In this document: piece after piece, positions 1 to 12,314 of the stretch | How the letters are laid out: each line of letters begins with the position of its first letter | Position numbering within the stretch: the first letter of the stretch is position 1 | Source of the DNA: Hyphomicrobium methylovorum | GTDB lineage: Bacteria > Pseudomonadota > Alphaproteobacteria > Rhizobiales > Hyphomicrobiaceae | Assembly (NCBI RefSeq): GCF_013626205.1 | Contig: NZ_QHJE01000001.1 | Coordinates: 992,001-1,056,000, forward strand | Direction: 5' to 3' | Length of the DNA stretch: 64,000 bases | The notes under the pieces: generated by a model | Databases searched by the model: none | What the model was told of the DNA's origin: nothing | The model's input: only the letters and a program-made list of their open reading frames with translations | Program-made: the position numbers and the translations under genes

Positions 1-1173
1 GGACGAGCTTTTTCCTGCGTCGCCCAACGGCTGTGTGTCGACGACAACTGGTCGCTCGCTTCTGGCGAGCGTCACGCAATCCTCAACGAATCTCGACATG
101 GACCGCTCGGCTTTCGTTTCTTTGAGATAATTGCACATCCCGCTATATAGCTGGGAATTTCCAATCATGCGCTTGACAGCGTCTGCCATTGAATCAGCAT
201 CAACACGCGCAGCTAATAGCCCGTTGACACCATCCTTCACTTGGTCAACGAGGCCGCCGACAGGTGTGGCAACCACGGGCAACTCAGCGCCGAAAGCAGT
301 CGCAGCGACTCCCGACTGGCTTGCCTCGATGTGGGACAATACGACGGCGTGATAACGCTTCAGCATCGCTCCAATCTCAGCCTCCGTGAGCCAACGGTTG
401 ACAACCTCGGCTCCCAAAATCGCAAGGCGCGCGACGTTTGGCCCGAGCGCACCCTCGCCGAACACGCCGACCTCGATCGCGATGCCTTCGTTGCGCAACA
501 GTTCGACCGTATCCAAGAACAGAGCCAGCCCTTTGTAAGGCATGATGCGGCCGAAGAACGCTAACCGCACCGGATCGCCTTTGTTCGGTAGCTGGCGCGT
601 GGCAAGCCCTCCGAAGTCGAGGTCGGGGTGGAACAAGCGGGCGATCTTTGTACGCGGAACCCCGGCTGCCGCGAGACGCCCGGCCACAGTCTCGCTCAGA
701 GTCAAAATGACATCGGCTTGGGTTATCGAGCGCTCAACGAGCAACTTGATTGAGGATGATCTGTAGTCGCCAGGATGGGTATCGGCATCGTGCACGACGA
801 CAGCGTAGCGAACTCCGCGCGCCTTTACGACCGGCATAACGAATGATGACCACGCGTGCGGCATCAGTTCGATAACCATCTCAACGCGATGGGTTGTCAC
901 GTAGTCGATTAACTGACGCTGCAATTGCGGTATACGCCATGCGTTCGTAAGCGCGCCCGCGTTAGTCTCGAACGTATCGACCAGTAAGAGACGGTCGCCC
1001 AGCTCTGCGAAAGCCGGAAGGCTTTCGTTCTGACGAGAAACACTGATGGCAGCATCTAAGCGATCATTGGACAAAGCCGCATGTGCCAGATCCAGTGCAA
1101 AGCGCGACAGCCCTCGCCGCCCCCAATAAAGAAAAAGAATGCGTACGGGCACGCTTACATCTCTTCCCAGCAT
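1..1173 (-). CDS. Glycosyltransferase family 4 (GT-B), 3' end cut by window edge
   Basis: Reading the minus strand from ATG at 1173 gives 391 codons without a stop up to base 1, so the C-terminus is outside the window. The protein begins with a Rossmann-like strand (VRILFLYWGRRGLSRF), has a central linker, and ends with the usual donor-site half: a strand/glycine segment RLAFFGRIMPYKG near residue 210 and the segment GAELPVVATPVGGLVDQVKDG near 315-335, typical of nucleotide-sugar binding in family 4. It likely adds a sugar to a cell-surface glycan in the cytoplasm. In-frame ATGs exist upstream at 1251 and 1284; 1173 was chosen because the first beta-strand follows it closely. It is transcribed away from the wecB-wzm-wzt operon. 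Sugar specificity cannot be told. Confidence 0.8.
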   Translation of the reverse strand, partial: MLGRDVSVPVRILFLYWGRRGLSRFALDLAHAALSNDRLDAAISVSRQNESLPAFAELGDRLLLVDTFETNAGALTNAWRIPQLQRQLIDYVTTHRVEMVIELMPHAWSSFVMPVVKARGVRYAVVVHDADTHPGDYRSSSIKLLVERSITQADVILTLSETVAGRLAAAGVPRTKIARLFHPDLDFGGLATRQLPNKGDPVRLAFFGRIMPYKGLALFLDTVELLRNEGIAIEVGVFGEGALGPNVARLAILGAEVVNRWLTEAEIGAMLKRYHAVVLSHIEASQSGVAATAFGAELPVVATPVGGLVDQVKDGVNGLLAARVDADSMADAVKRMIGNSQLYSGMCNYLKETKAERSMSRFVEDCVTLARSERPVVVDTQPLGDAGKSSS

Positions 1174-1794
1174 CGCAATAACCTTGGTGCCCCAGATCAC
1201 CCCGCGAGACCGGGGAGCAGCGTTCAAGATGATGAATTTCGCGGCCTCCATATTCGAGATTAGACAGCTTAGGAATCCCGCCATTTCGACGACTTGACAA
1301 TTTCGAGCGGCGTTGCCGAGTGCAATGTCGATTGCTGTAAGACAGGTCACCCTACTGGCGCTGAGGCCGGTGCCATGACAGCATGAGCCATGCCTTTTCT
1401 TCCGCTCGTCCAGTTTGACAAGGCCCACTCAGCAGGGTGTGCGCTTCGTCTAAAGTAGGAGAGGTATGTGACGCTCCAGTGACTCTAGAATTATTCCCGA
1501 GGCTTGCCTTAGCCCTCCATCCGAGGGTGCTCCGATTGTCAAAGGAGCTCTGCGTTCCTCGCGATAAGCTCATTCAGTCACATGCGGAGAGCCTCGCCGA
1601 ACGGCTATGTTGCAAGCGAAGCGGCCCAAATCTAAATAGTCGCGGCGACGGGTTGAGTATTGCGGCGGGCTGGAACTTGCGCGCTTAACTTCTTCGATCC
1701 TGGAGAACGTTCTTATCTTCGCCTGTGCGATTAACAGGGGTATCCGTCCTGCGCCTCGCGAAGAGCAGAAAACTTAAGCAATGCCGAGAGAAAC
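1174..1794. other. Intergenic region between divergent polysaccharide genes
   Basis: About 620 bases between the leftward glycosyltransferase and the rightward wecB operon. It should hold both promoters, but I see no convincing -35/-10 pair, operator or RNA gene. The short open frames here have no recognisable motif or good ribosome binding site. Confidence 0.5.
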
Positions 1795-2931
1795 ATGACG
1801 GCACATCGACCCAAGCGACTTGTTGTGGCGGCCGTGGTCGGTACTCGACCAGAAGCCATCAAGATGGCTCCGGTTATCAAAGCACTCCAATCTGCTAACT
1901 GGTGCGAATGTATTGTTGTTGCCACTGCTCAGCATCGCCAAATGCTGGACCAGGTGCTCGATCTATTTGGCATCAAAGTCGACATCGACCTTGACGTGAT
2001 GCGCGAGCGGCAGAGCTTACCAGCATTGACTGCGCGCTTGTTTGAAAGTCTGGACGCAGCTTTTCAAAAACAGAAGTTAGACCTTGTGCTCGCGCAGGGC
2101 GATACTACGACAGTAATGGTAGCGGCGATGATCGCGTTTTATCATCGTATACCGTTTGGTCATGTCGAAGCTGGATTGCGCACCGGCGACCTTAATAATC
2201 CCTTTCCTGAAGAAATGAATCGGGTTGTCGCTAGCCGGTTAGCCGCCCTGCATTTCACTCCGACAAAAAAAGCCGCTGATGCGCTTCTTAGGGAAGGCGT
2301 GCGTGAAGCAGATATCATTGTCACCGGTAACACCGTCATTGACGCTCTGCTCGAAGTGGCGAAGAGAGCGCCCGATCTGCCAATGACCTTGCCGGCAGGA
2401 CAGCGCTTAATTCTTCTTACCGCACATCGGCGAGAGAACTTTGGCGCCCCGAACGAACGTATCTTCTCCGCTATCAATCGGCTTATTAAGCGCCATCCGG
2501 ATATCGAAGTAATTTACCCGGTGCACTCCAATCCCAACGTCAAGAGAATTGCGCACGAGCGATTGGGTTCGACCCCGCGCGTGCACCTGCGCGATCCCCT
2601 CGATTACAATCAGCTTGTGGCGGTGATGAAGGCATCCGTGCTTATTCTAACCGATAGCGGCGGCATACAGGAGGAGGCTCCGGCGCTCGGAAAGCCAGTT
2701 CTGGTGCTACGTGAGCAAACTGAACGGCCAGAGGCAGTGGAGGCGGGGGTGGCGAAGCTCGTAGGTACGGATGAGGATACAATTGTCGACGAAACGACCC
2801 GGCTCCTTGAAGACGAAACCGCCTATCGTGCTATGGCGCAGGCAATTTCGCCATACGGGGACGGCAAAGCAGCTGGACGTATCGTGACGCGCATCTGGGA
2901 GCGATATGGTCGCGATGGGGACCAATCTTGA
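1795..2931 (+). CDS. wecB: UDP-N-acetylglucosamine 2-epimerase (non-hydrolysing)
   Basis: Interconverts UDP-GlcNAc and UDP-ManNAc in the cytoplasm, supplying ManNAc-type donors for surface polysaccharide. The 378-residue length fits the WecB/MnaA family. Visible family motifs are GTRPEAIKMAPVI near residues 17-29, the segment GHVEAGLRTGDLNNPFPEEMNR near 120-140, LLTAHRRENFG near 205-215, the HSNP segment, and the C-terminal LTDSGGIQEEAPALGKPVLVLR with REQTERPEA. The start is ATG at 1795 with a GAGAGAAAC stretch just before it. It is the first gene of a tightly packed operon; its end overlaps the next gene by 26 bases, so translation is probably coupled. The non-hydrolysing type is inferred from the intact family motifs. 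Confidence 0.93.
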   Translation: MTAHRPKRLVVAAVVGTRPEAIKMAPVIKALQSANWCECIVVATAQHRQMLDQVLDLFGIKVDIDLDVMRERQSLPALTARLFESLDAAFQKQKLDLVLAQGDTTTVMVAAMIAFYHRIPFGHVEAGLRTGDLNNPFPEEMNRVVASRLAALHFTPTKKAADALLREGVREADIIVTGNTVIDALLEVAKRAPDLPMTLPAGQRLILLTAHRRENFGAPNERIFSAINRLIKRHPDIEVIYPVHSNPNVKRIAHERLGSTPRVHLRDPLDYNQLVAVMKASVLILTDSGGIQEEAPALGKPVLVLREQTERPEAVEAGVAKLVGTDEDTIVDETTRLLEDETAYRAMAQAISPYGDGKAAGRIVTRIWERYGRDGDQS

Positions 2932-3835
2932 CCAAAATCCTACAACTAGTGATGCGTCCGACGCCATACCGGACAAGAGCCGCACTGTGATTGATCGCCA
3001 ACCGAAATCCTACGCGCGTTGGAATCCACTCAGCATGGCGAGTGACCTTTGGCTGCGCCGCCATCTTCTTATCGCTATGACAAGACGAGAAATTGAAAGT
3101 CGCTATAAGGGATCGTACGGAGGTGTAGTTTGGTACGTAGTCAATAATCTCGCGCTACTTGCCATCTATTCTTTCGTATTTGGAGTAGTTTTCAAAGCCC
3201 GTTGGCAGTCAGTTGGCGTGGATTCCAATCAGTCGAACACAAGCTCTGCGTTGTCTCTTTTCGTCGGCTTGCTCGTTTTTAATATTATTGCCGAAACCGC
3301 TAACCGCGCTCCAAATCTTCTCGTTGCCCAAGTTAATTACGTCAAGAAGGTCGTTTTCCCGCTGGAGATTCTGCCCGTAATTTCACTAGGGGCTGCGCTT
3401 TTCAACGCCGCGATCGGGCTGGTTGTACTTATCGTCCTCGGCTTGGTTTTGGGAACACCCGTGTCATGGAAGATCATTTACTTCCCGGTGATTGTGACCC
3501 CAGTGGTGTTGTTCTCACTGGGCCTGTCTTGGTTCCTTGCCTCGCTTGGGGTTTATGTTCGCGATACAGCGCAGATCGTCGGACTCGGAGTTACGATGCT
3601 AATGTTCCTTACGCCAATATTCTATTCAGTTAGCATGCTTCCCGACGGCTGGAGCACATTGCTCAACGCCAATCCGCTTACTCTCCCGGTGGAGGAGATG
3701 CGCGCTGCCATTCTCTACGGCCGCGATCCGGATTTTTCTGGTCTTGCCATCCTCACAATCGTCGGCCTCATAGTGGCTTGGCTTGGACGGGTGTGGTTTG
3801 AGATGACCCGACAAGGTTTTGCCGATGTCATCTGA
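2906..3835 (+). CDS. wzm: Polysaccharide export ABC transporter permease (Wzm/KpsM type)
   Basis: Inner-membrane permease of an ABC-2 type exporter that carries a lipid-linked or completed polysaccharide across the cytoplasmic membrane. The 309-residue protein has a hydrophilic N-terminus of about 55 residues, then the family segment MTRREIESRYKGSYGGVVW, and about six hydrophobic segments (roughly residues 75-95, 110-130, 150-180, 190-220, 225-245, 280-300). It lies inside a wecB-wzm-wzt arrangement and overlaps its ATPase by 17 bases. ATG at 2915 is an alternative start. The transported glycan is unknown. Confidence 0.88.
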   Translation: MVAMGTNLDQNPTTSDASDAIPDKSRTVIDRQPKSYARWNPLSMASDLWLRRHLLIAMTRREIESRYKGSYGGVVWYVVNNLALLAIYSFVFGVVFKARWQSVGVDSNQSNTSSALSLFVGLLVFNIIAETANRAPNLLVAQVNYVKKVVFPLEILPVISLGAALFNAAIGLVVLIVLGLVLGTPVSWKIIYFPVIVTPVVLFSLGLSWFLASLGVYVRDTAQIVGLGVTMLMFLTPIFYSVSMLPDGWSTLLNANPLTLPVEEMRAAILYGRDPDFSGLAILTIVGLIVAWLGRVWFEMTRQGFADVI

Positions 3836-5120
3836 AGTGGCGATCGAGGTCGAGGGACTCGGAAAATCGTACTTCATCTACGAACGCCCCGAGGATCGTC
3901 TCAAGCAGATGATCGTGCCGAAGCTCCGGCGGCTTATCGGGAGAGCACCCCGATTGTATTACAGCGAGTTCTGGGCGCTAAAAAACATCTCCTTTTCAGT
4001 TGGACGCGGCGAGACGGTTGGCATCATCGGCCGCAACGGTTCGGGCAAATCGACCCTTCTGCAGCTAATCGTCGGCACATTGTCAGCAACCACGGGAAGC
4101 GTGCACTCTCGCGGTCGCATCGCCGCGCTCCTCGAACTTGGTGCAGGATTCAATCCGGAATTCACGGGCCGTGAGAATGCTCTATTGAATGCGACCATCC
4201 TTGGCCTTTCCAATAGTGAAGCCCAAGCGCGCATGGCGGAAATAGTGGCGTTCGCTGACATCGGTGAATTCTTCGATCGGCCCGTGAAAACATACTCAAG
4301 CGGCATGTTCGTGCGTGTTGCTTTTGCTGTGCAGGCGTGCATTGAGCCCGATATTCTTGTGGTCGACGAAGCACTGGCCGTAGGTGATGAGAAATTTCAA
4401 CGTAAGTGTTTTGATCGTCTCGAAAAGCTGCGGAAGAATGGAACATCGATCCTTCTCGTTACTCATTCAGCGACTACGATCGAACGGTTTTGCCAGCGTG
4501 CGCTTTTGCTGCATCAAGGCGAACTGCACAATATCGGGCCCAGCAACCAAATCGTAGATCAATACCATGCGCTTCTCTACGCCGATCGTGTGGCCTATGC
4601 CTCGCTCCGCGCGAAGGGAGCGGCTACGCTAACTCCACCTGTATCTGATCCCGAGTCCACACAAGCAGATGCGGAAACAAGCGAGTCGCGCGCTACTATT
4701 CTCTCGGTGCGATTGTTGAATGACTCGGGCATCACCTGCGAGCATTTCACGCCCGGCCAAAGCGCCCGAGTCGAGCTAAAGATAAAGTGCAGCAGTTACG
4801 TCCCCGAGATGCAAATCGGAATCAAAATCAGAACCGTGGAGGGTGTTTTTGCTTTCGGAACCAGTACACTTTACCACGCTCGCAATGTCGTTGCAGTGGA
4901 GAGTGACGAAGTTATTGGTGTCGTATTCCAAATTGCACTCAACCTTTGCGAGGATGCCTACTTCATAAGCGTGGCTGTTGCCGGTGCTTCGATCTCCGGT
5001 GACATGCGGTATCTCGACAAACAGACGGATGTTCTGTTCTTTCGGATCGCTGAGCCGAGGGTGAGAGCTGGAGGCATCGCTTTTCTGCCGGTCAACATAG
5101 AAATTGAGAGGCGAGCGTAA
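3819..5120 (+). CDS. wzt: Polysaccharide export ABC transporter ATPase with C-terminal glycan-binding domain (Wzt type)
   Basis: Powers the Wzm permease. Walker A (GRNGSGKST) lies near residues 71-79, the signature region is the SSGMFVRVAFAVQ stretch near 160-172, and Walker B is ILVVDEALAVGD near 178-190. After the nucleotide-binding domain (about 1-255) comes an extra domain of about 150 residues (roughly 285-433), rich in beta-strands. In the Wzt family this extension recognises the non-reducing end of the finished O-polysaccharide; its presence here suggests chain-end-dependent export, which is inference. ATG at 3825 is an alternative start. The next gene begins two bases after the stop. 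Confidence 0.9.
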   Translation: MPMSSEVAIEVEGLGKSYFIYERPEDRLKQMIVPKLRRLIGRAPRLYYSEFWALKNISFSVGRGETVGIIGRNGSGKSTLLQLIVGTLSATTGSVHSRGRIAALLELGAGFNPEFTGRENALLNATILGLSNSEAQARMAEIVAFADIGEFFDRPVKTYSSGMFVRVAFAVQACIEPDILVVDEALAVGDEKFQRKCFDRLEKLRKNGTSILLVTHSATTIERFCQRALLLHQGELHNIGPSNQIVDQYHALLYADRVAYASLRAKGAATLTPPVSDPESTQADAETSESRATILSVRLLNDSGITCEHFTPGQSARVELKIKCSSYVPEMQIGIKIRTVEGVFAFGTSTLYHARNVVAVESDEVIGVVFQIALNLCEDAYFISVAVAGASISGDMRYLDKQTDVLFFRIAEPRVRAGGIAFLPVNIEIERRA

Positions 5121-5122
5121 CG

Positions 5123-8100
5123 ATGCGCCTATTGACGGTGTACGATGATTTCAGCCGGGGAGGGTTGGAAAGTCAGATAGAGGGCCAAGCGCGGGCGCTT
5201 GCTTCACACGGGGTGGAGATGTTCCTCGCCAGCGGAGGATCAGTCGATGAAGTGAAACCCGGACTCTTCAAAGCAAGTATAGGAGGACTATTTCTCTCTA
5301 GCTCCACGTCGTTCCGGCAACTGCGCGAAACACTAACGCAGATGGCCGAGTTTATTTGCGCACACAATATAACGGCGATTCATGCGCATCCATTCTACAG
5401 CAACGTCGTCGGAGCGTTAGTCGCGCAGGCTACACAACTGCCGTTTGTGCTGACACTCCATGGCCCTGTTTCGCTAACCAGCATGAAGGGTCACGTTCTT
5501 GAACTATTATTTCGCGGGGTTGTTTTGCCTGCGGCCGGCAACGTTTTCTGCGTCTCACGCGAGGTGGAACTTATTTGTCAGGCCAATGCGGTTTGCCGGA
5601 CCCACATTCTACCCAACGCAGTGCAGATTCCGGAACAAGCGATTGAGCGATGCAGCTCGCTCGATGGACCCTGGATGTGGGCGGGACGGATCGATAGTTC
5701 CAAGGTGGTGGGTCTCATGGATCTCATTACCAAGATGGACAGTGCACGGAGGCAGTTACACATTTACGGCGATGGCCCGGCGAAGCCCTATCTTTTGGAC
5801 TTTTTGAATAAGGGTGGTTTTGATTTCGTCGAGCTGCGCGGATGGAATAATTCGCTGCCGGAAATTATGCGGGACTATTCGCTTGTCGCGGGTATGGGAC
5901 GCGTAATCCTGGAAGCAGCGGCACGGGACCGAGCCTGCCTGTTGGTTGGCTACGACGGTGTCAAAGGACTCCTTGACCGCCAACGGTTGGAGCAGGCCGG
6001 TTTCTGGAATTATTCCGGCCGCGGGTTCGCAACCGTAAATCGGGAGCAATTGGAGACCGAACTCGATAAAGGGCAGGACAAGTTTGGCAATCGCGAATTG
6101 TCGGAATGGGTGCGGAGCGAGCGATCGGAAGCTGCTGTCTGGCAGCAATTTTTAACCGCATTTCCTGTCGAACCGACACGCGAGCCAACGCTTGCCGTGA
6201 TTCTCGAAGCGTTGCGTATGAAGGGTGTCAGCGACGCTGAGGTTTGGAACTCACTTGAGTTTGCGGAACTGCTCGAGGGGCTGCTCAGTAATTCTCACAT
6301 CGCTGGGCAAAATAGTATTCAAGTGGCGCAGCAGAAGCGGGACCGACGGCTCTCCGCAGCTGAACACGCCTTGCAGCAAGAGATGGAAGGTTCTGCCGCG
6401 CTGAGAACCGCTCTTGCGAAAGCTGAAGAGCTGAACTCTACCCTCGCCGTGCGTCTCGCAGACTTCGAGCTAACGCAGCAAAAGGATGCTGCACAAGCAG
6501 CGGCCTTAAAGGCCTCACTAGCGACCGCGGAAAAAAAGAATTCCGATCTTGCTATCCGCCTAGAAAATGAAGCCGTGTCCAACGCCCAGCTTCGCGAGCA
6601 ATTTGCGAACACCGATTTCGAAAGAAATCAGTGGGAGTTCCAATGTAACGAGATGGCAAGATCGACATCGTGGAGAGCGACGCACCCTTTTCGGTTGGCT
6701 TCCAGTGCGGCGCGGCTGTTGGCGTCGAAACCGCAAGCAACGCGGACGCGCCTCTCGCACGTTATCCGTCTGATCCGTCGGGACGGGCTAATTGGCGCTT
6801 TGACCTGGACGCATAACCGACTGTCTCTTGGTTCTGTAACCCCAAACCAATCCTCTGCAAGCCTTAGCGGCGGGCACGAATTCACAGCGGGTGTTCCGCA
6901 ATCCGCTTCGACGCTTTCGTCGGCCTTTACGATGATTGAGGAGCCGTTCGATCCCTACGCACTGATTGATCCACTCAAGCCCATCCGTTTCGACGTCATC
7001 AACAAGCCGTTCAGCGGATCGTGCCTTCCATTCAGTTGTGTGACAACCGTTAGGAATGAGGCGGAATCAATTGTCGAATTTCTGGATTCTCTAGCAAAGC
7101 AGACAGTTCGACCGCACCAGCTTGTCGTGGTCGACGGCGGCAGTACGGACAGAACAATCGAATTGGTGAGACGCTGGAGTGTCTCCGCTCCCTTCGAGGT
7201 AAATCTGGTCGAGGCCGGCAAGGTCAACATAGCGCGGGGGAGAAATATCGGAGTCGAGAAGGTCGCGACGGGCATCATCGTATTTATCGACGCCGGCTCG
7301 GTGTTGAAGCCAGATTTTTGCAAGGAATTGGTCGGAGCCTTCAGCACAGTTCGAGATCTCGATGTCGCCTGTGGTCTATACGAGGCTTCCATTCAGAACG
7401 AGTATTCCAAACAATTCGTCTGGGATTTTGACACGATCGACTTCTCGACATTCCTACCATCGGCGCGGGCATTCGCGGTGAAAACCGAAACTTTTCGAAT
7501 GACGAATGGCTTTCCCGAATACCTCACCAAAACCGGAGAGGACACGCTCTTTGCGATTCAGTTGCGACAAGCGTCGAAGCATTGGGCAGTCTGTAGCCTA
7601 GCGCGGGTGATATGGGACGCACCGTCCAACGCCGAACAAGCCAGTCTGCTCTCTTATCAATACGCTAGTGGCGATGGCGAGTCCGGTTATGGCGACTTCA
7701 GGGCTTACCCAATCGCGCTCGCCCGCGATGCCAGCAACACTTGGCTCCCACAAACCTGGATCGACGGCTACCTTGCGGGGCGCTCGCAACGTGCCCTGAT
7801 TGATGTGGAGCGCCGGGGAATCGACCAGCTAGTGGTGATATTGTCCGGCGTTCCCTTCACCGATTCTGGTGGCGGTCAGAGATGCAGCCAGATGGCAATG
7901 GCGTTCGCTCGCCGCAATTGCAAGGTGGTGTTTGTCAATATCTACCCCAGTTTCGAAGAACGCCGCAAACTCTACTTCGACATCGATTTATCGCTTTTCG
8001 AGTTTTATGCACTTCGGGATTTCAGTGCAGATAATTTGGCGGATCGCTATGATCGGTTCGAGAACCTATCTGTAATGGTGATTTCGGAATTTCCCCATCC

Positions 8101-9754
8101 CAGTCTGTTGCCGGTGATCGACGTTCTCAAGTCGAGGTTCAAAGACAGAATCACAACCGTCTACGATTACATCGACAACTGGCAGACTTCACTCGGATGG
8201 GAATGGTACAACGAAGCGATTGAGCATCGTTTCATCCGGCAATCCGACGTTCTCGTTGCTTCGGCAAAAACGCTTCAAGAGCGCCTTGTGGAGCGCAGCG
8301 GTCGCAATGTTGCACTGATTGAGAATGCCGTAAACGACCGGCTATTCTTTCGGCAATCGTCGCTCGAACGTCCTAGTGATTTGCCGAAGGGTCGCAATGT
8401 TGTTCTCTACACTGGCGCCATGTGGGGCGACTGGTTCGACTGGGACCTTTTGTGCGCCTGCGCCAAGAGATTGCCGAGTTTTGATTTCGTAATGGTTGGC
8501 GGAGTAAATCCCGAACGACAAACGGAAATCTCCCAAGAACTAGAGAATGTCCATTTTCTCGGACTTAAGCCTCAGCGAGAGCTGCCAGCTTATCTTCTCC
8601 ACGCCAATGTTGGAATTATCCCGTTCATTCCAGGAGACGTCACCAACTTTGTAAATCCTTTAAAAGTTTATGAGTACGTCGCCATGGGCCTGCCTGTGGT
8701 CGCCACGCAAATGGCTGGGATTCCAAACATTCCTGGAGTGAGTATTTCGCCATCCGTCGACGGATTTGCCGACGCCATAAAGAGTTGGATGGAAATCAAT
8801 CCACCTCGCGAAGAGATGGAACGTTTCACAAAGTCCAACAATTGGGACACACGCATTCTAGACCTACTCGGCCTCGGCGGCATCGCAATTCTAGACGACA
8901 TCACGAACTCGGCACCAGCTAATCCGAACGACAACAAGAAGTGCTGGCCAGGTGTCCTAGATCTGTCAGCGCCTGTCTCCCAGGCTGCTGCCACCGCATT
9001 GTCGCGCGTGGGCGCAAGTCCACTCCACGAAGCTGAGTTCGAGATCTTTCGCTATTTCACGAGGCACAACGATCTCATCCTCGACGTAGGTGCGAATAGT
9101 GGTCAGTCGATCGTGTCTATACGGACTGTCGCCCCTTTCACTCCCATCAAGGCATTTGAGCCCAATACCTTGCTTGCGCCTATTCTAGAGGAAGTAGCGA
9201 CCAAACTCGGCTCTGTCGAGATCTTCGACTTTGGATTAGGGGCGGAAGAGTCGGAGCGGACACTTTTCACTCCGATAATCGATGGCTATGCGATCACGCC
9301 TCTGGCTTCGATGGATCTACCGACGCTGAAATCTAGTCAGCAACTCAAATATATGCGCGACATGGCGTCCGATGGTCGAGTCATGTTTCTGCGCTCCAAC
9401 TCCGTCGTCAGGCCAGGGGATAGTCTCGATCTAAAGCCGACTGCGATAAAGATTGACGTAGAAGGTTTCGAAAGAGAGGTGGTTCGAGGGCTGATGAGGA
9501 CATTAAGAACTTCCAAGGCGCTTTTGCTAGTTGAAAAAAGCCGGTCGATTCTTGATGTTGGGACAATACTGCGGGAAATCGGCTATATTGCAATGCAGCT
9601 GCAAAAAGATGGGATGTCCGCGCATGTCCTCGAACTTTCTAACGCGCCGACGATTCCCTTAAATGTAGTATTCGCGCACGAAGATCAACTTGATGAGTTG
9701 GCTTCAAGAGGCTTGCGCATCCAGTATACGAAGCAAAGTGTTGCACGCTCATGA
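5123..9754 (+). CDS. Giant multidomain protein: GT4, coiled coil, GT2, GT4 and FkbM methyltransferase
   Basis: A single 1543-residue reading frame with five recognisable parts. Residues 1-350 are a family 4 glycosyltransferase (starts RLLTVYDDFSRGGLESQIEGQ; donor-site half at 180-300). Residues 400-505 are a charged Ala/Gln/Glu-rich coiled coil. Residues 635-830 are a family 2 glycosyltransferase (CVTTVRNEAES, then VVVDGGSTDRT, then FIDAGSV). Residues 895-1250 are a second family 4 domain (VVILSGVPFTDSGGGQR; FVNPLKVYEYVAMGLPVVAT). Residues 1300-1480 are an FkbM-type methyltransferase (DLILDVGANSGQS; IKIDVEGFE). It probably assembles and O-methylates, perhaps caps, the polysaccharide exported by the adjacent Wzm/Wzt. 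The next gene overlaps its stop by four bases. Domain calls are strong; linkages and order of action are unknown. Confidence 0.88.
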   Translation: MRLLTVYDDFSRGGLESQIEGQARALASHGVEMFLASGGSVDEVKPGLFKASIGGLFLSSSTSFRQLRETLTQMAEFICAHNITAIHAHPFYSNVVGALVAQATQLPFVLTLHGPVSLTSMKGHVLELLFRGVVLPAAGNVFCVSREVELICQANAVCRTHILPNAVQIPEQAIERCSSLDGPWMWAGRIDSSKVVGLMDLITKMDSARRQLHIYGDGPAKPYLLDFLNKGGFDFVELRGWNNSLPEIMRDYSLVAGMGRVILEAAARDRACLLVGYDGVKGLLDRQRLEQAGFWNYSGRGFATVNREQLETELDKGQDKFGNRELSEWVRSERSEAAVWQQFLTAFPVEPTREPTLAVILEALRMKGVSDAEVWNSLEFAELLEGLLSNSHIAGQNSIQVAQQKRDRRLSAAEHALQQEMEGSAALRTALAKAEELNSTLAVRLADFELTQQKDAAQAAALKASLATAEKKNSDLAIRLENEAVSNAQLREQFANTDFERNQWEFQCNEMARSTSWRATHPFRLASSAARLLASKPQATRTRLSHVIRLIRRDGLIGALTWTHNRLSLGSVTPNQSSASLSGGHEFTAGVPQSASTLSSAFTMIEEPFDPYALIDPLKPIRFDVINKPFSGSCLPFSCVTTVRNEAESIVEFLDSLAKQTVRPHQLVVVDGGSTDRTIELVRRWSVSAPFEVNLVEAGKVNIARGRNIGVEKVATGIIVFIDAGSVLKPDFCKELVGAFSTVRDLDVACGLYEASIQNEYSKQFVWDFDTIDFSTFLPSARAFAVKTETFRMTNGFPEYLTKTGEDTLFAIQLRQASKHWAVCSLARVIWDAPSNAEQASLLSYQYASGDGESGYGDFRAYPIALARDASNTWLPQTWIDGYLAGRSQRALIDVERRGIDQLVVILSGVPFTDSGGGQRCSQMAMAFARRNCKVVFVNIYPSFEERRKLYFDIDLSLFEFYALRDFSADNLADRYDRFENLSVMVISEFPHPSLLPVIDVLKSRFKDRITTVYDYIDNWQTSLGWEWYNEAIEHRFIRQSDVLVASAKTLQERLVERSGRNVALIENAVNDRLFFRQSSLERPSDLPKGRNVVLYTGAMWGDWFDWDLLCACAKRLPSFDFVMVGGVNPERQTEISQELENVHFLGLKPQRELPAYLLHANVGIIPFIPGDVTNFVNPLKVYEYVAMGLPVVATQMAGIPNIPGVSISPSVDGFADAIKSWMEINPPREEMERFTKSNNWDTRILDLLGLGGIAILDDITNSAPANPNDNKKCWPGVLDLSAPVSQAAATALSRVGASPLHEAEFEIFRYFTRHNDLILDVGANSGQSIVSIRTVAPFTPIKAFEPNTLLAPILEEVATKLGSVEIFDFGLGAEESERTLFTPIIDGYAITPLASMDLPTLKSSQQLKYMRDMASDGRVMFLRSNSVVRPGDSLDLKPTAIKIDVEGFEREVVRGLMRTLRTSKALLLVEKSRSILDVGTILREIGYIAMQLQKDGMSAHVLELSNAPTIPLNVVFAHEDQLDELASRGLRIQYTKQSVARS

Positions 9755-11076
9755 GAGGTGAGCAGGCACCGATTCGCTCGTTTCTCGATCGCGCTCCTAA
9801 ACGGCTAGCGACTGCAATCAACATTATTAAGCAAGAGGGTTGGCAAGCCTTATTGCGTGTTGCAGTGAACCGATTTCTTCTGCCTGGCGTCAGCAAAATT
9901 ACTAAACCACTGTGGTTCTCCAAACTGCGTGCCGCAATTGACAACAGCCCGGCTGATCGACCACCGGTTCTAATCCTTGCGACTTGCGATTATCGCTTTC
10001 CCTATCGGCAACGCTGCCAGCATCTTGCTAAGGCAATAGCTTCGCTAGGGCATGTTGTCGTCTATGGTTCGCCGCTCACCGGTTATGACAGCGTGCTAGG
10101 GTTCTGGAGCGCCTCGGAACGGCTCATCGTAGTAAACTACCGGACACGCTGGCAGGACTTGCTGCCCGGGAACGCCATCGTTTTGGTCATGTCAACGGAC
10201 AACCAACTCGGCACGAATTTTTTGCCAGAAGCGCAGGCACAACAATGGAAGATTATTTATGACTACATTGACGAGATTGATCCGAGGATCAGTCTCGGGC
10301 CTATTTCTGAGAACCACTTAATGGCCCACTCAGACCTTCTTAAAGAGGAAAGCGTTCTGGTTGTATGCGTGGCGCCAAATCTGATGCGAGAAGCGCGGAC
10401 TTATCGGACTAAGAACCTTGCCCTCGTACCTAATGGGGTGGATTGCGCGCACTACAAAACTGTTCGTAACTACAGCGTTCTGCCGCAAGAGATGCGTGCG
10501 ATTGTCGATTTAGCTAAACCCATAGTCGGCTACTTCGGCGCTTTGGCCTGCTGGCTCGACTTTGACCTCGTTTCTAGCGTCGCTCGCGCCCGGCGCGATT
10601 TTAGCTTTGTTCTAATAGGTCCTGACTTCGATGGCTCGCTCGCAAAGTGGAGGCGTGAGAACAGGGCGTTGCCTGAAAACCTTTTTATCCTGCCGCCGTT
10701 TCCCTATCATACACTTCCAAACTTAGCGGTGTGGTTCGATGTCGGCATGATACCGTTTGTGGTCAATAAAATCACGGCGGCCACATCGCCTCTTAAGCTA
10801 TACGAATACTTCGCTCTCCAAATACCAGTCGTATCCTCGCCGTTACCCGATTGCGAAAGATATGCGGATGTTGTCGCGGTTGCTGACGGCTCCGAGAACT
10901 TTGCTCAGGCGGTCGATTCGGCTGTCGCGCGAAGCTCCAACACTGACATCCGGCAGCGCCTTTCCAGCTATGCGGCGAGGAGCGATTGGCAAAGCCGCGC
11001 CAGCGAAATATTGAAGCTATCGACGGGCTTGAAAACAGAATTATGCCGTACGGTTGCGGATCGAGACGCGACGTAG
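9751..11076 (+). CDS. Glycosyltransferase, GT-B fold, family 1/4-like
   Basis: A 441-residue cytoplasmic glycosyltransferase. After a basic N-terminal stretch of about 65 residues it shows an acceptor half (PVLILATCDYRFPYRQRCQH; YDYIDEIDPR near 170) and a donor half (IVGYFGALACWLDFDLV near 255; ATSPLKLYEYFALQIPVVSS near 345-365). The YDYID element and the SPLKLYEY/PLKVYEY element also occur in the second GT4 domain of the preceding giant protein, so the two are probably related by duplication. The start overlaps the preceding stop (ATGA), indicating translational coupling. It is the last gene of the polysaccharide operon visible here. Confidence 0.85.
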   Translation: MRGEQAPIRSFLDRAPKRLATAINIIKQEGWQALLRVAVNRFLLPGVSKITKPLWFSKLRAAIDNSPADRPPVLILATCDYRFPYRQRCQHLAKAIASLGHVVVYGSPLTGYDSVLGFWSASERLIVVNYRTRWQDLLPGNAIVLVMSTDNQLGTNFLPEAQAQQWKIIYDYIDEIDPRISLGPISENHLMAHSDLLKEESVLVVCVAPNLMREARTYRTKNLALVPNGVDCAHYKTVRNYSVLPQEMRAIVDLAKPIVGYFGALACWLDFDLVSSVARARRDFSFVLIGPDFDGSLAKWRRENRALPENLFILPPFPYHTLPNLAVWFDVGMIPFVVNKITAATSPLKLYEYFALQIPVVSSPLPDCERYADVVAVADGSENFAQAVDSAVARSSNTDIRQRLSSYAARSDWQSRASEILKLSTGLKTELCRTVADRDAT

Positions 11077-11244: not shown

Positions 11245-11682
11245 TTACTTCGGGCAATCGCCGACCCGGCGGCCAGATTGGGTTTCGCGCATGGTCATGT
11301 TCTTGCCTCCCATGCGCATGACGTACCGCCCCTCAAACGCATCAGGTTCGAGCGTATAGACGGCGGAGGCGCGTCCGGCGTCAATTCCATCGCAGATGAT
11401 GTAGAACGTGATCTGCTTATCGCCCTTGACGACGTTCTTCACTGGGCAGTGGGCAAGTTGGATGTTGTCCGTCAGCAAAAAGAATCCGTGCGCATGATCT
11501 GGCGTGTCGGCACGAACGCAGATCTCAGTCGTCTTGCGCGCATTGAGGTCCTCGGTCTGGCCCATGTCGAGCATCACCGACACTTTGTAGAGGCCATCCT
11601 GCAGGCTGTCCGCCCAAGCGCCTTGCGCCCATAATGGAGACGCGCCGATTACCAGGAGCAGAAAACGTCGAGCTGCCGTCAT
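11245..11682 (-). CDS. Secreted DUF3617-type protein
   Basis: A 145-residue protein with a signal peptide (about residues 1-25, ending near AQGAWA-DS). The mature part begins with a DGLYKVSVMLDM-like strand, has three to four cysteines, and ends with MRMGGKNMTMRETQSGRRVGDC. That tail, with MGGKNM and a terminal Cys, resembles DUF3617 periplasmic proteins, whose function is unknown. A ribosome binding site (GGAGAATCAC) precedes the ATG. A paralogue with the same tail is encoded divergently at 11886-12314. The lower-case family name is a motif-based call, not a search result. Confidence 0.7.
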   Translation of the reverse strand: MTAARRFLLLVIGASPLWAQGAWADSLQDGLYKVSVMLDMGQTEDLNARKTTEICVRADTPDHAHGFFLLTDNIQLAHCPVKNVVKGDKQITFYIICDGIDAGRASAVYTLEPDAFEGRYVMRMGGKNMTMRETQSGRRVGDCPK

Positions 11683-11885: not shown

Positions 11886-12314
11886 ATGCGCTTTCTACAT
11901 CTCATGACGTTGCTCGTCATTCCCGCTGCGGCAAGCGCGGAAGACGCCGTTCTGCAGCCCGGCGAATATGAAGTGCAGATGCGCCTGGAGCTTCCGCACG
12001 TCGAGGATATGGGCGTGCAAAAGACTGCCAAAGTCTGCATCACGGGTGGCGACACGCACGGCATTGTCGTGCTGAGCGAAAACAATCCGTTGGCGCGGTG
12101 TCCCGCCTCTAATGTCAAACTGTTGGATCAGACTCTGAGCTTCGACCTCGTCTGCGAGGGGCACAATCAAGCGGTCGCGTGGGCCAAGTTCCAGCTTTGG
12201 CCCGATCGTTTCTCGGGCGTGTTCGATATGAAGATGGGCGGTAAGAACATGACCATGAGCGAACGGCAAACCGGCAAGCGCGTCGGCGTCTGTAAGGACC
12301 CGCCGCATTCTTGA
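11886..12314 (+). CDS. Secreted DUF3617-type protein, paralogue of the divergent gene
   Basis: A 142-residue protein with a signal peptide (residues 1-19, ...AAASA-ED). It shares with its divergent neighbour the layout 'x-GEYEVQMRLEL... KVCI ... CPASNVKL ... MKMGGKNMTMSERQTGKRVGVC', so the pair clearly arose by duplication. It has a strong ribosome binding site (GGAGG seven bases before ATG). It is followed by the 2OG-oxygenase gene after 45 bases and may be co-transcribed with it. Role unknown; periplasmic location inferred from the signal peptide. Confidence 0.7.
   Translation: MRFLHLMTLLVIPAAASAEDAVLQPGEYEVQMRLELPHVEDMGVQKTAKVCITGGDTHGIVVLSENNPLARCPASNVKLLDQTLSFDLVCEGHNQAVAWAKFQLWPDRFSGVFDMKMGGKNMTMSERQTGKRVGVCKDPPHS

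Follow-up and report, generated by a model that had tools for sequence, protein, structure and literature searches.

Which enzyme ends a growing polysaccharide when glycosyltransferases (GTs), a coiled coil (CC) and a methyltransferase are all joined in one polypeptide? The question is raised by a 1543-residue protein of Hyphomicrobium methylovorum, encoded in a 64,000-nucleotide stretch of contig NZ_QHJE01000001.1 (the window; positions 992,001 to 1,056,000) and called the large protein below. Its domains follow the order GT4, coiled coil, STSWR element, GT2, GT4 and FkbM methyltransferase, and its gene comes immediately after wzm and a wzt gene that has a C-terminal carbohydrate-binding domain (Wzt_C). 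By analogy with WbbB and ORF6 of Klebsiella pneumoniae O12 and O7, the most plausible reading of the protein is a polymerase/terminator scaffold in a single chain, serving a polysaccharide that depends on an ATP-binding cassette (ABC) transporter. In the mechanism that we favour, with a probability of about 0.40, the N-terminal GT4 would add a measured terminal sugar. The methyltransferase seems to lie at the opposite end from the usual site of the end-marking enzyme in such machines.

One unbroken frame encodes the whole chain

The large gene is an ATG-started frame of 1543 codons (5123-9754, + strand) with 0 internal stops. A whole-genome check placed the identical chain at G000:C1:997123-1001751, in a stop-free frame of 1548 codons. 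An earlier note on this DNA had described a 1543-residue chain with GT4, coiled-coil, GT2, GT4 and FkbM parts in an operon with Wzm and Wzt. Both descriptions hold: the former agrees with the single frame, the Pfam matches and a helix in the AlphaFold model, and the latter with the Wzm/Wzt transporter genes immediately upstream, where PF01061, PF00005 and PF14524 (Wzt_C) all score above their cut-offs at 2906-5120.

The N-terminal domain matched PF13439 (Glyco_transf_4; cut-off 28.5) with 57.0 bits over two stretches of the full chain, the best being residues 13-167, and with 44.4 bits when the N-terminal 383 residues were scanned alone. In the alignment, this domain displays the stretches GGLE, HAHP, GRIDSSK, YGDGPA and GRVILEA, which we take to be motifs. 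The second GT4 domain matched PF13692 (Glyco_trans_1_4) with 68.2 bits over two stretches of the full chain (cut-off 27). For the FkbM family (PF05050, cut-off 22.7), the full chain scored 21.3 bits, below the cut-off, whereas the C-terminal 281 residues scanned alone scored 25.6 bits, above it, and covered positions 1-171 of the 173 in the profile. Among solved structures, 15 sequences matched the C-terminal remainder of the chain, every one in the GT2 region, and none matched the N-terminal 580 residues at E 0.1. The AlphaFold models are weak overall, with a mean predicted local distance difference test score (pLDDT) of 48.8 for the N-terminal part (from a 6-row alignment) and 53.0 for the model containing GT2, whose GT2 core reaches about 90.

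GC content at third codon positions (GC3) ranged from 0.48 to 0.66 across 100-codon segments of the gene, close to the values of the wecB-like gene, wzm and wzt (0.55-0.58). By domain, the large gene has a GC content of 0.51-0.58 and a GC3 of 0.55-0.62; for the three upstream genes and the GT4 gene at 9751-11076, the figures are 0.51-0.55 and 0.55-0.58. The two genes beyond lie above all of these (GC 0.60-0.61, GC3 0.69-0.75), a contrast as found in many transferred polysaccharide clusters. Five in-frame starts with a loose ribosome-site-like sequence occur inside the large gene, at residues 485, 924, 985, 1056 and 1223.

A predicted coiled coil runs into the STSWR element

AlphaFold modelled residues 398-513 as one continuous helix, with pLDDT 65-88 from residue 401 on, followed by a break and a second helix at 515-535. 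In a heptad register test on 398-513, 15 of the 24 Leu, Ile, Val, Met and Phe residues fell in the best a/d register, a value reached in 2 of 5000 shuffles; a Fourier heptad test on residues 404-511 was not significant (1127/5000 shuffles). STSWRATHPFR, which lies where the helix ends, was recognised by a profile built from nine other proteins, with the large protein left out: the large open reading frame (ORF) matched at E 3e-5, and the next ORF of the window at E 0.63.

Comparison with published machines suggests a terminator across the coil

The terminator of WbbB is a 3-deoxy-D-manno-oct-2-ulosonic acid (Kdo) transferase. As described in excerpts of Kelly et al. (2024, PMC11231755), WbbB resembles the large protein in its single-chain layout: an N-terminal GT, which in WbbB is the terminator, is followed by a coiled coil and a pair of polymerase GTs at the C-terminus. 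Its GTs, however, are the founders of GT99, GT102 and GT103, whereas the large protein has a GT4-GT2-GT4 set, and those excerpts do not mention FkbM, which the large protein possesses. ORF6, as portrayed there, is also a single chain with a coil in the middle and GT2 modules on the C side, but it has two GT2 modules and a methyltransferase-kinase cap enzyme on the N side, where the large protein has GT4; the methyltransferase of the latter is C-terminal. In the single-chain polymerase-terminators covered by the same excerpts, the terminator sits at the coil end distal to the polymerase.

Other relatives in function differ more in layout. The product of WbdD in Escherichia coli O8/O9a is exported by Wzm/Wzt, according to part of PMC3482155, as would be expected at the locus of the large protein. 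Unlike the large protein, WbdD is separate from the polymerase WbdA, and its N-side part is a methyltransferase or kinase-methyltransferase. WsaE of Geobacillus stearothermophilus, in the portion of PMC2943079 considered here, is likewise encoded in a wzm/wzt cluster and unites a methyltransferase with two GTs in a single polypeptide; its methyltransferase is N-terminal, its GTs are rhamnosyltransferases, and that portion names no coil. The order of the large protein, with the methyltransferase C-terminal of the GTs, is therefore not that of WsaE.

Because the published rule puts the terminator across the coil, the N-terminal GT4 is the candidate terminator and the GT2-GT4 pair the probable polymerase. 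FkbM as a measured cap is doubtful, since GT4 occupies the distal position and FkbM is found with the polymerase. We thus propose that a membrane-docked chain builds an O-antigen-like polysaccharide for export through the neighbouring Wzm/Wzt. Near the membrane, where the STSWR element at the helix end might anchor or dock the complex, a lipid-linked chain would be lengthened by the C-terminal GT2 and GT4, perhaps helped by the separate GT4 encoded at 9751-11076. The coil, whose length of about 17 nm was calculated from 0.148 nm per residue, would keep the N-terminal GT4 away from the polymerase, and only a chain long enough to reach this GT4 would receive the terminal sugar. That sugar would end growth and then be read by Wzt_C, and the polymerase-side FkbM would methylate either sugars along the chain or the one that ends up terminal. 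The domains and their order, the operon, the transporter type and the conserved element are seen directly in the sequence, and the helix is predicted; the assignments of polymerase, terminator and methylation target, and of the coil as a measure, we infer. Wzt_C domains are described, in sections of PMC9445017, as reading a modified end whose cap is a methyl group, a methylphosphate or a special sugar.

The earlier note had suggested that one protein may polymerise, measure and cap the polysaccharide. The outline stands, as polymerase-type GTs, a ruler-like coil and possible end-marking enzymes match the published polymerase-terminators (excerpts of PMC11231755). The choice of FkbM as the measured cap is not supported, given its position on the GT2-GT4 side and the N-terminal position of comparable enzymes in 16 of 17 ORFs, to which we turn below.

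Putative end-marking enzymes precede the coil in most of the flagged ORFs at Wzt_C loci

Wzt_C is present in 30 of the 103 genomes of the family and 42 of the 385 of the class (own genome counted in both). For comparison, we assembled 69 loci, comprising all 29 other family loci and 40 stretches that cover 41 of the 45 other places in the class; many of the contigs are short. A home-made scan for a long coil or an STSWR-like pattern flagged 40 of the 933 ORFs at these loci (11 after shuffling). Pfam was then run on 37 of these; L087, L116 19220 and L128 0-1193, which run off their stretch, were left out. A methyltransferase or sulfotransferase-like domain was found in 17 flagged coiled-coil ORFs at 16 of the 69 loci: FkbM in L066, other methyltransferases in L074, L075, L084, L094-L098 and L110 3812-5479, and sulfotransferase-like domains in L068, L100-L102, L109, L110 (from 10809) and L111. 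The sulfotransferase cut-off was passed by L102 and L111 only, with L068, L101 and L109 below it, and the labels of L100 and L110 rest on a common GMHR(S/A)GTSA stretch; L094 has a short coil, of 32 residues. In 16 of the 17 ORFs the domain lies N-terminal of the coil. GT domains follow the coil in the same chain in 11 of these 16, and an STSWR-type element, degenerate in some, marks the coil end in 10. Outside the 17, L065 encodes a weak GT4 and then a coil, and L080, which was not flagged, encodes methyltransferases, two short coils and GT4 and would fit with the 16.

The locus with the best-scoring Wzt is L068, from the same family as the genome of the window: its wzt is 45.4% identical and its wzm 45.6% (the wzm of L074 is slightly closer, at 47.6%). 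At this Wzt_C locus, too, a protein of the plan X-CC-GT2-GT4 is encoded. Unlike the large protein, it has a sulfotransferase-like X domain (Sulfotransfer_3, 19.3 bits, below the cut-off of 27), no FkbM and no STSWR element that could be seen. L068 was also the best match when the C-terminal region of Wzt was compared with 59 others (28.5 bits), and the attempt to predict a cap type from this comparison was dropped, the matches being too weak and mixed. What looked like a giant protein at L110, in a frame of some 25,000 codons, was rejected: after a sulfotransferase-coil-GT2 start, the frame is mostly a run of N.

The STSWR element follows coils in glycan enzymes of several phyla

With a 10-row profile of the element, hits at E 0.001 or less came from 24 of 240 class genomes, among them the own genome. 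Over genome contigs, the pattern STSWRL[TA][AES]PL yielded 148 stretches, of which 76 were confirmed (L176-L251); their titles name Proteobacteria, Actinobacteria, Planctomycetes, Chloroflexi and others, and many are metagenome-assembled genomes (MAGs). The reading frame could be placed in 76 of 76, with a coil at most 60 residues upstream of the element in 66, and the protein ended within 35 residues of its Trp in 45. Judged by sequence, the element STSW(R/K)xTxPLR is conserved and stands directly after the coiled coil of glycan enzymes from several phyla. Pfam scans of 60 N-terminal parts found Methyltransf_23 (13), Methyltransf_24 (7), Sulfotransfer_3 (7), GT2 (7), FkbM (6), PIG-L deacetylase (5) and GT4 (4), with overlap among the tallied families. 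In 25 C-terminal parts, GT2 occurred 20 times, PF13692 nine times, and FkbM (L202) and another methyltransferase (L200) once each. A literature search with six spelling variants of the element found no paper.

Some of these proteins stand out in their own right. A sulfotransferase-like domain followed by a coiled coil occurs at ten loci (L068, L100, L101, L102, L109, L110, L111, L164, L167 and L214; the first seven are Wzt_C loci), with an STSWR-type element in 8/10 and GTs in 6/10, and sulfate-capped polysaccharides are possible there. A search for papers that combine a sulfotransferase with coiled-coil, Wzt, O-antigen and termination found none, and among the matches listed in a broader literature search, sulfotransferase and Wzm never appeared together. 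At L187 (626-1684), near wzm/wzt, a polysaccharide pyruvyl transferase carries a coiled coil and an STSWR tail, and a pyruvate cap is possible. The 1281-residue protein of L163 (3703-7545, - strand) has the order FkbM-coil-SLSWRLTRPFR-GT4, its N-terminal FkbM being the reverse of the arrangement in the large protein, and two more FkbM-like genes adjoin it. No paper was found in a literature search on FkbM with Wzm.

Parts of the domain order recur in other bacteria

The earlier note had called the domain order unfamiliar. This applies to the full order but not to its parts. GT4-CC-STSWR-GT2-GT4, as in the large protein, is encoded at L237 (a Lysobacterales MAG; 1523 residues) and L188 (a Sterolibacterium MAG; 1619 residues), with no FkbM match in either, and GT-CC-STSWR-FkbM occurs at L202 (Methyloceanibacter marginalis). 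Searching genome contigs with the full chain gave six stretches that matched the pattern and 0 that were confirmed, and in 60 genomes (own included) the whole chain matched at domain level only. The N-terminal 580 residues gave a match in 11 of 289 class genomes and 15 of 299 phylum genomes (own included in each), with no other match beyond GT4. When the N-terminal GT4 was used as the query over 709 ORFs, the GT4 domains of L188 and L237 and the L181 protein were not found; L181, a stand-alone GT4-CC-STSWR protein, has a GT4 that weakly matches that of the window in a single comparison (26% over 85 residues, E 8e-5). GT4-coil-GT2-GT4 and GT-coil-FkbM thus each occur elsewhere, and the complete order of five parts did not turn up in any collection searched.

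Weighing the alternatives

Several observations weigh against the favoured mechanism. The N-terminal GT4 lacks the first Glu of E-x7-E (AGMGRVILEA), a pattern that is common in GT4 and not defining; the loss resembles that in L134 (an Alicyclobacillus relative; GTGRVALES) and L181 (ATGRSAIEA), and because these look alike there, it may be a subfamily trait. AlphaFold confidence is low over this domain, and the helix after the coil has a modest hydrophobic moment (0.33-0.45). Where an STSWR locus has a strong match to the Wzt ATPase (E below 1e-30), 14 of 15 N-terminal domains are methyl-, sulfo- or pyruvyltransferases and 0 of 15 are GTs, which weakens GT4 as the terminator; loci without such a match have a GT there in at least 14 of 45 cases, two of the 14 also with a methyltransferase. 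A Fisher test on these labels gave p 0.013; it was post hoc, on hand-assembled labels and flanks of at most 8 kb, and the loci are non-independent (L209 and L219 are near-identical; L176, L243 and L249 look the same as L095, L098 and L166). Finally, L110 3812-5479 (- strand) encodes 556 residues with a coil at 71-222, a zinc-ribbon match and then a C-terminal methyltransferase at 357-451, so the N-side rule is not absolute. By eye, its N-terminus resembles a short hydrophobic helix, and its methyltransferase may still lie far from the anchor. This exception shifted the odds slightly, lowering the probability of the measured GT4 terminator from 0.42 to 0.40 and raising by a trace that of FkbM as the cap.

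If FkbM were the capping enzyme, it would methylate the non-reducing end, stop growth and license export, and the three GTs would build the chain. A methyl group is a known cap, bound by a Wzt_C domain (part of PMC9445017), FkbM is the N-terminal domain of the wzt-linked STSWR proteins L066, L204, L217 and L245, and L110 offers a methyltransferase C-terminal of the coil at a Wzt_C locus. From its place on the polymerase side, however, FkbM could not use the coil as a ruler, its counterparts in 16 of the 17 ORFs precede the coil, and by eye its subtype seems different from that of the L066 and L163 FkbM domains. We consider this role unlikely; FkbM may also cap without a ruler, as perhaps in WsaE (portion of PMC2943079). 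Another account, to which we likewise give rather poor odds, does without measurement altogether: the coil and the STSWR element would form a tether or dimeriser that gathers the GTs at the membrane, the three GTs would jointly make a repeat unit, FkbM would decorate it, and length would be set elsewhere. The same tail on stand-alone GT2 and GT4 proteins (L158, L161, L181, L203 and L205) is consistent with this, as is GT4-CC-GT2-GT4 at L188 and L237, where tblastn with wzm and wzt of the window found no match in the flanks (at most 8 kb). Against it, wzm and a wzt with a cap-reading Wzt_C immediately precede the large gene, and the predicted helix is long and unbroken. That separate genes were joined by a sequencing or assembly error, named in the earlier note as a refutation, is very improbable: the failure to find a whole-chain orthologue in the collections searched would agree with it, but a single frame runs through every joint, GC3 is fairly even, comparable fusions exist in other bacteria, and the genome is in 4 contigs with completeness given as 100. 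The favoured mechanism, a measured terminal sugar added by the N-terminal GT4, can also be extended, although we hold the extension as a whole to be unlikely. Here, a coil ending in STSW(R/K)xTxPLR would be a general docking cassette for exchangeable glycan-end enzymes (methyl, sulfo, pyruvyl, deacetyl, glycosyl), and the large protein would be its double-marking version, with a far-end sugar and a polymerase-end methyl, both placed by the polymerising chain, giving the end group that Wzt reads.

Gene neighbourhood

The wecB-like gene, wzm, wzt with Wzt_C, the large gene and the GT4-like gene form an apparent operon. The product of the last gene shares 30% identity with the large protein over residues 1012-1252 of the latter. 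Since Wzy_C-family (ligase/polymerase; three matches) and priming-enzyme families (two matches) are present elsewhere in the genome, the polysaccharide could be a lipopolysaccharide O-antigen.

Features of the cluster and of the large protein, in positions of the window
Feature	Position	Strand	Evidence and remarks
wecB-like UDP-GlcNAc 2-epimerase, 378 aa	1795..2931	+	PF02350, 385.5 bits; first gene of the apparent operon
wzm, ABC-2 permease, 309 aa	2906..3835	+	PF01061, 91.3 bits
wzt, ABC ATPase with Wzt_C carbohydrate-binding domain (about 4680-5078)	3819..5120	+	PF00005, 83.6 bits; PF14524, 67.1 bits (cut-off 30.4)
Large gene, 1543 aa, GT4 - coiled coil - STSWR element - GT2 - GT4 - FkbM	5123..9754	+	Frame and Pfam
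N-terminal GT4 domain, residues about 1-350, candidate terminator position	5123..6172	+	PF13439 above cut-off
Predicted coiled-coil helix, residues 398-513, 116 residues, about 17 nm	6314..6661	+	AlphaFold single helix; heptad register test
STSWRATHPFR element and short helix, residues 514-535	6662..6727	+	Profile match; the element alone spans 6662-6694; modelled helix 515-535
GT2 domain, residues about 630-880	7010..7762	+	PF00535 (Glycos_transf_2) at 638-765, 60.7 bits (cut-off 23.3)
Second GT4 domain, residues about 900-1255	7820..8887	+	PF13692, best stretch 1092-1222
FkbM methyltransferase match, residues 1321-1488 (domain about 1300-1530)	9083..9586	+	PF05050; DVGANSGQ and IKIDVEG stretches
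Separate GT4 gene	9751..11076	+	Overlaps the stop of the large gene by ATGA; PF13692, 25.7 bits, just below the cut-off of 27

By eye, a GT4-like gene lies on the opposite strand at 1-1428 (-), and L023 7382-13801, upstream of the cluster, holds a resistance-nodulation-division (RND) efflux pair and a two-component system. Convergent small proteins encoded at 11245-11682 (-) and 11886-12314 (+) are alike in sequence (MGGKNMTM; RRVG/KRVG) and are probably paralogues, again by eye.

Implications

The ruler idea can be tested directly on single-chain polymerase-terminators, through changes in the coil and the resulting sugar-chain length. In the large protein, a far-end GT together with a polymerase-end methyltransferase would separate the measured stop from the methyl mark, which are combined in WbdD. 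The wider find is the STSWR element with its exchangeable enzymes: it provides a sequence handle for finding coiled-coil glycan machines and has revealed sulfotransferase-like and pyruvyltransferase versions near Wzm/Wzt.
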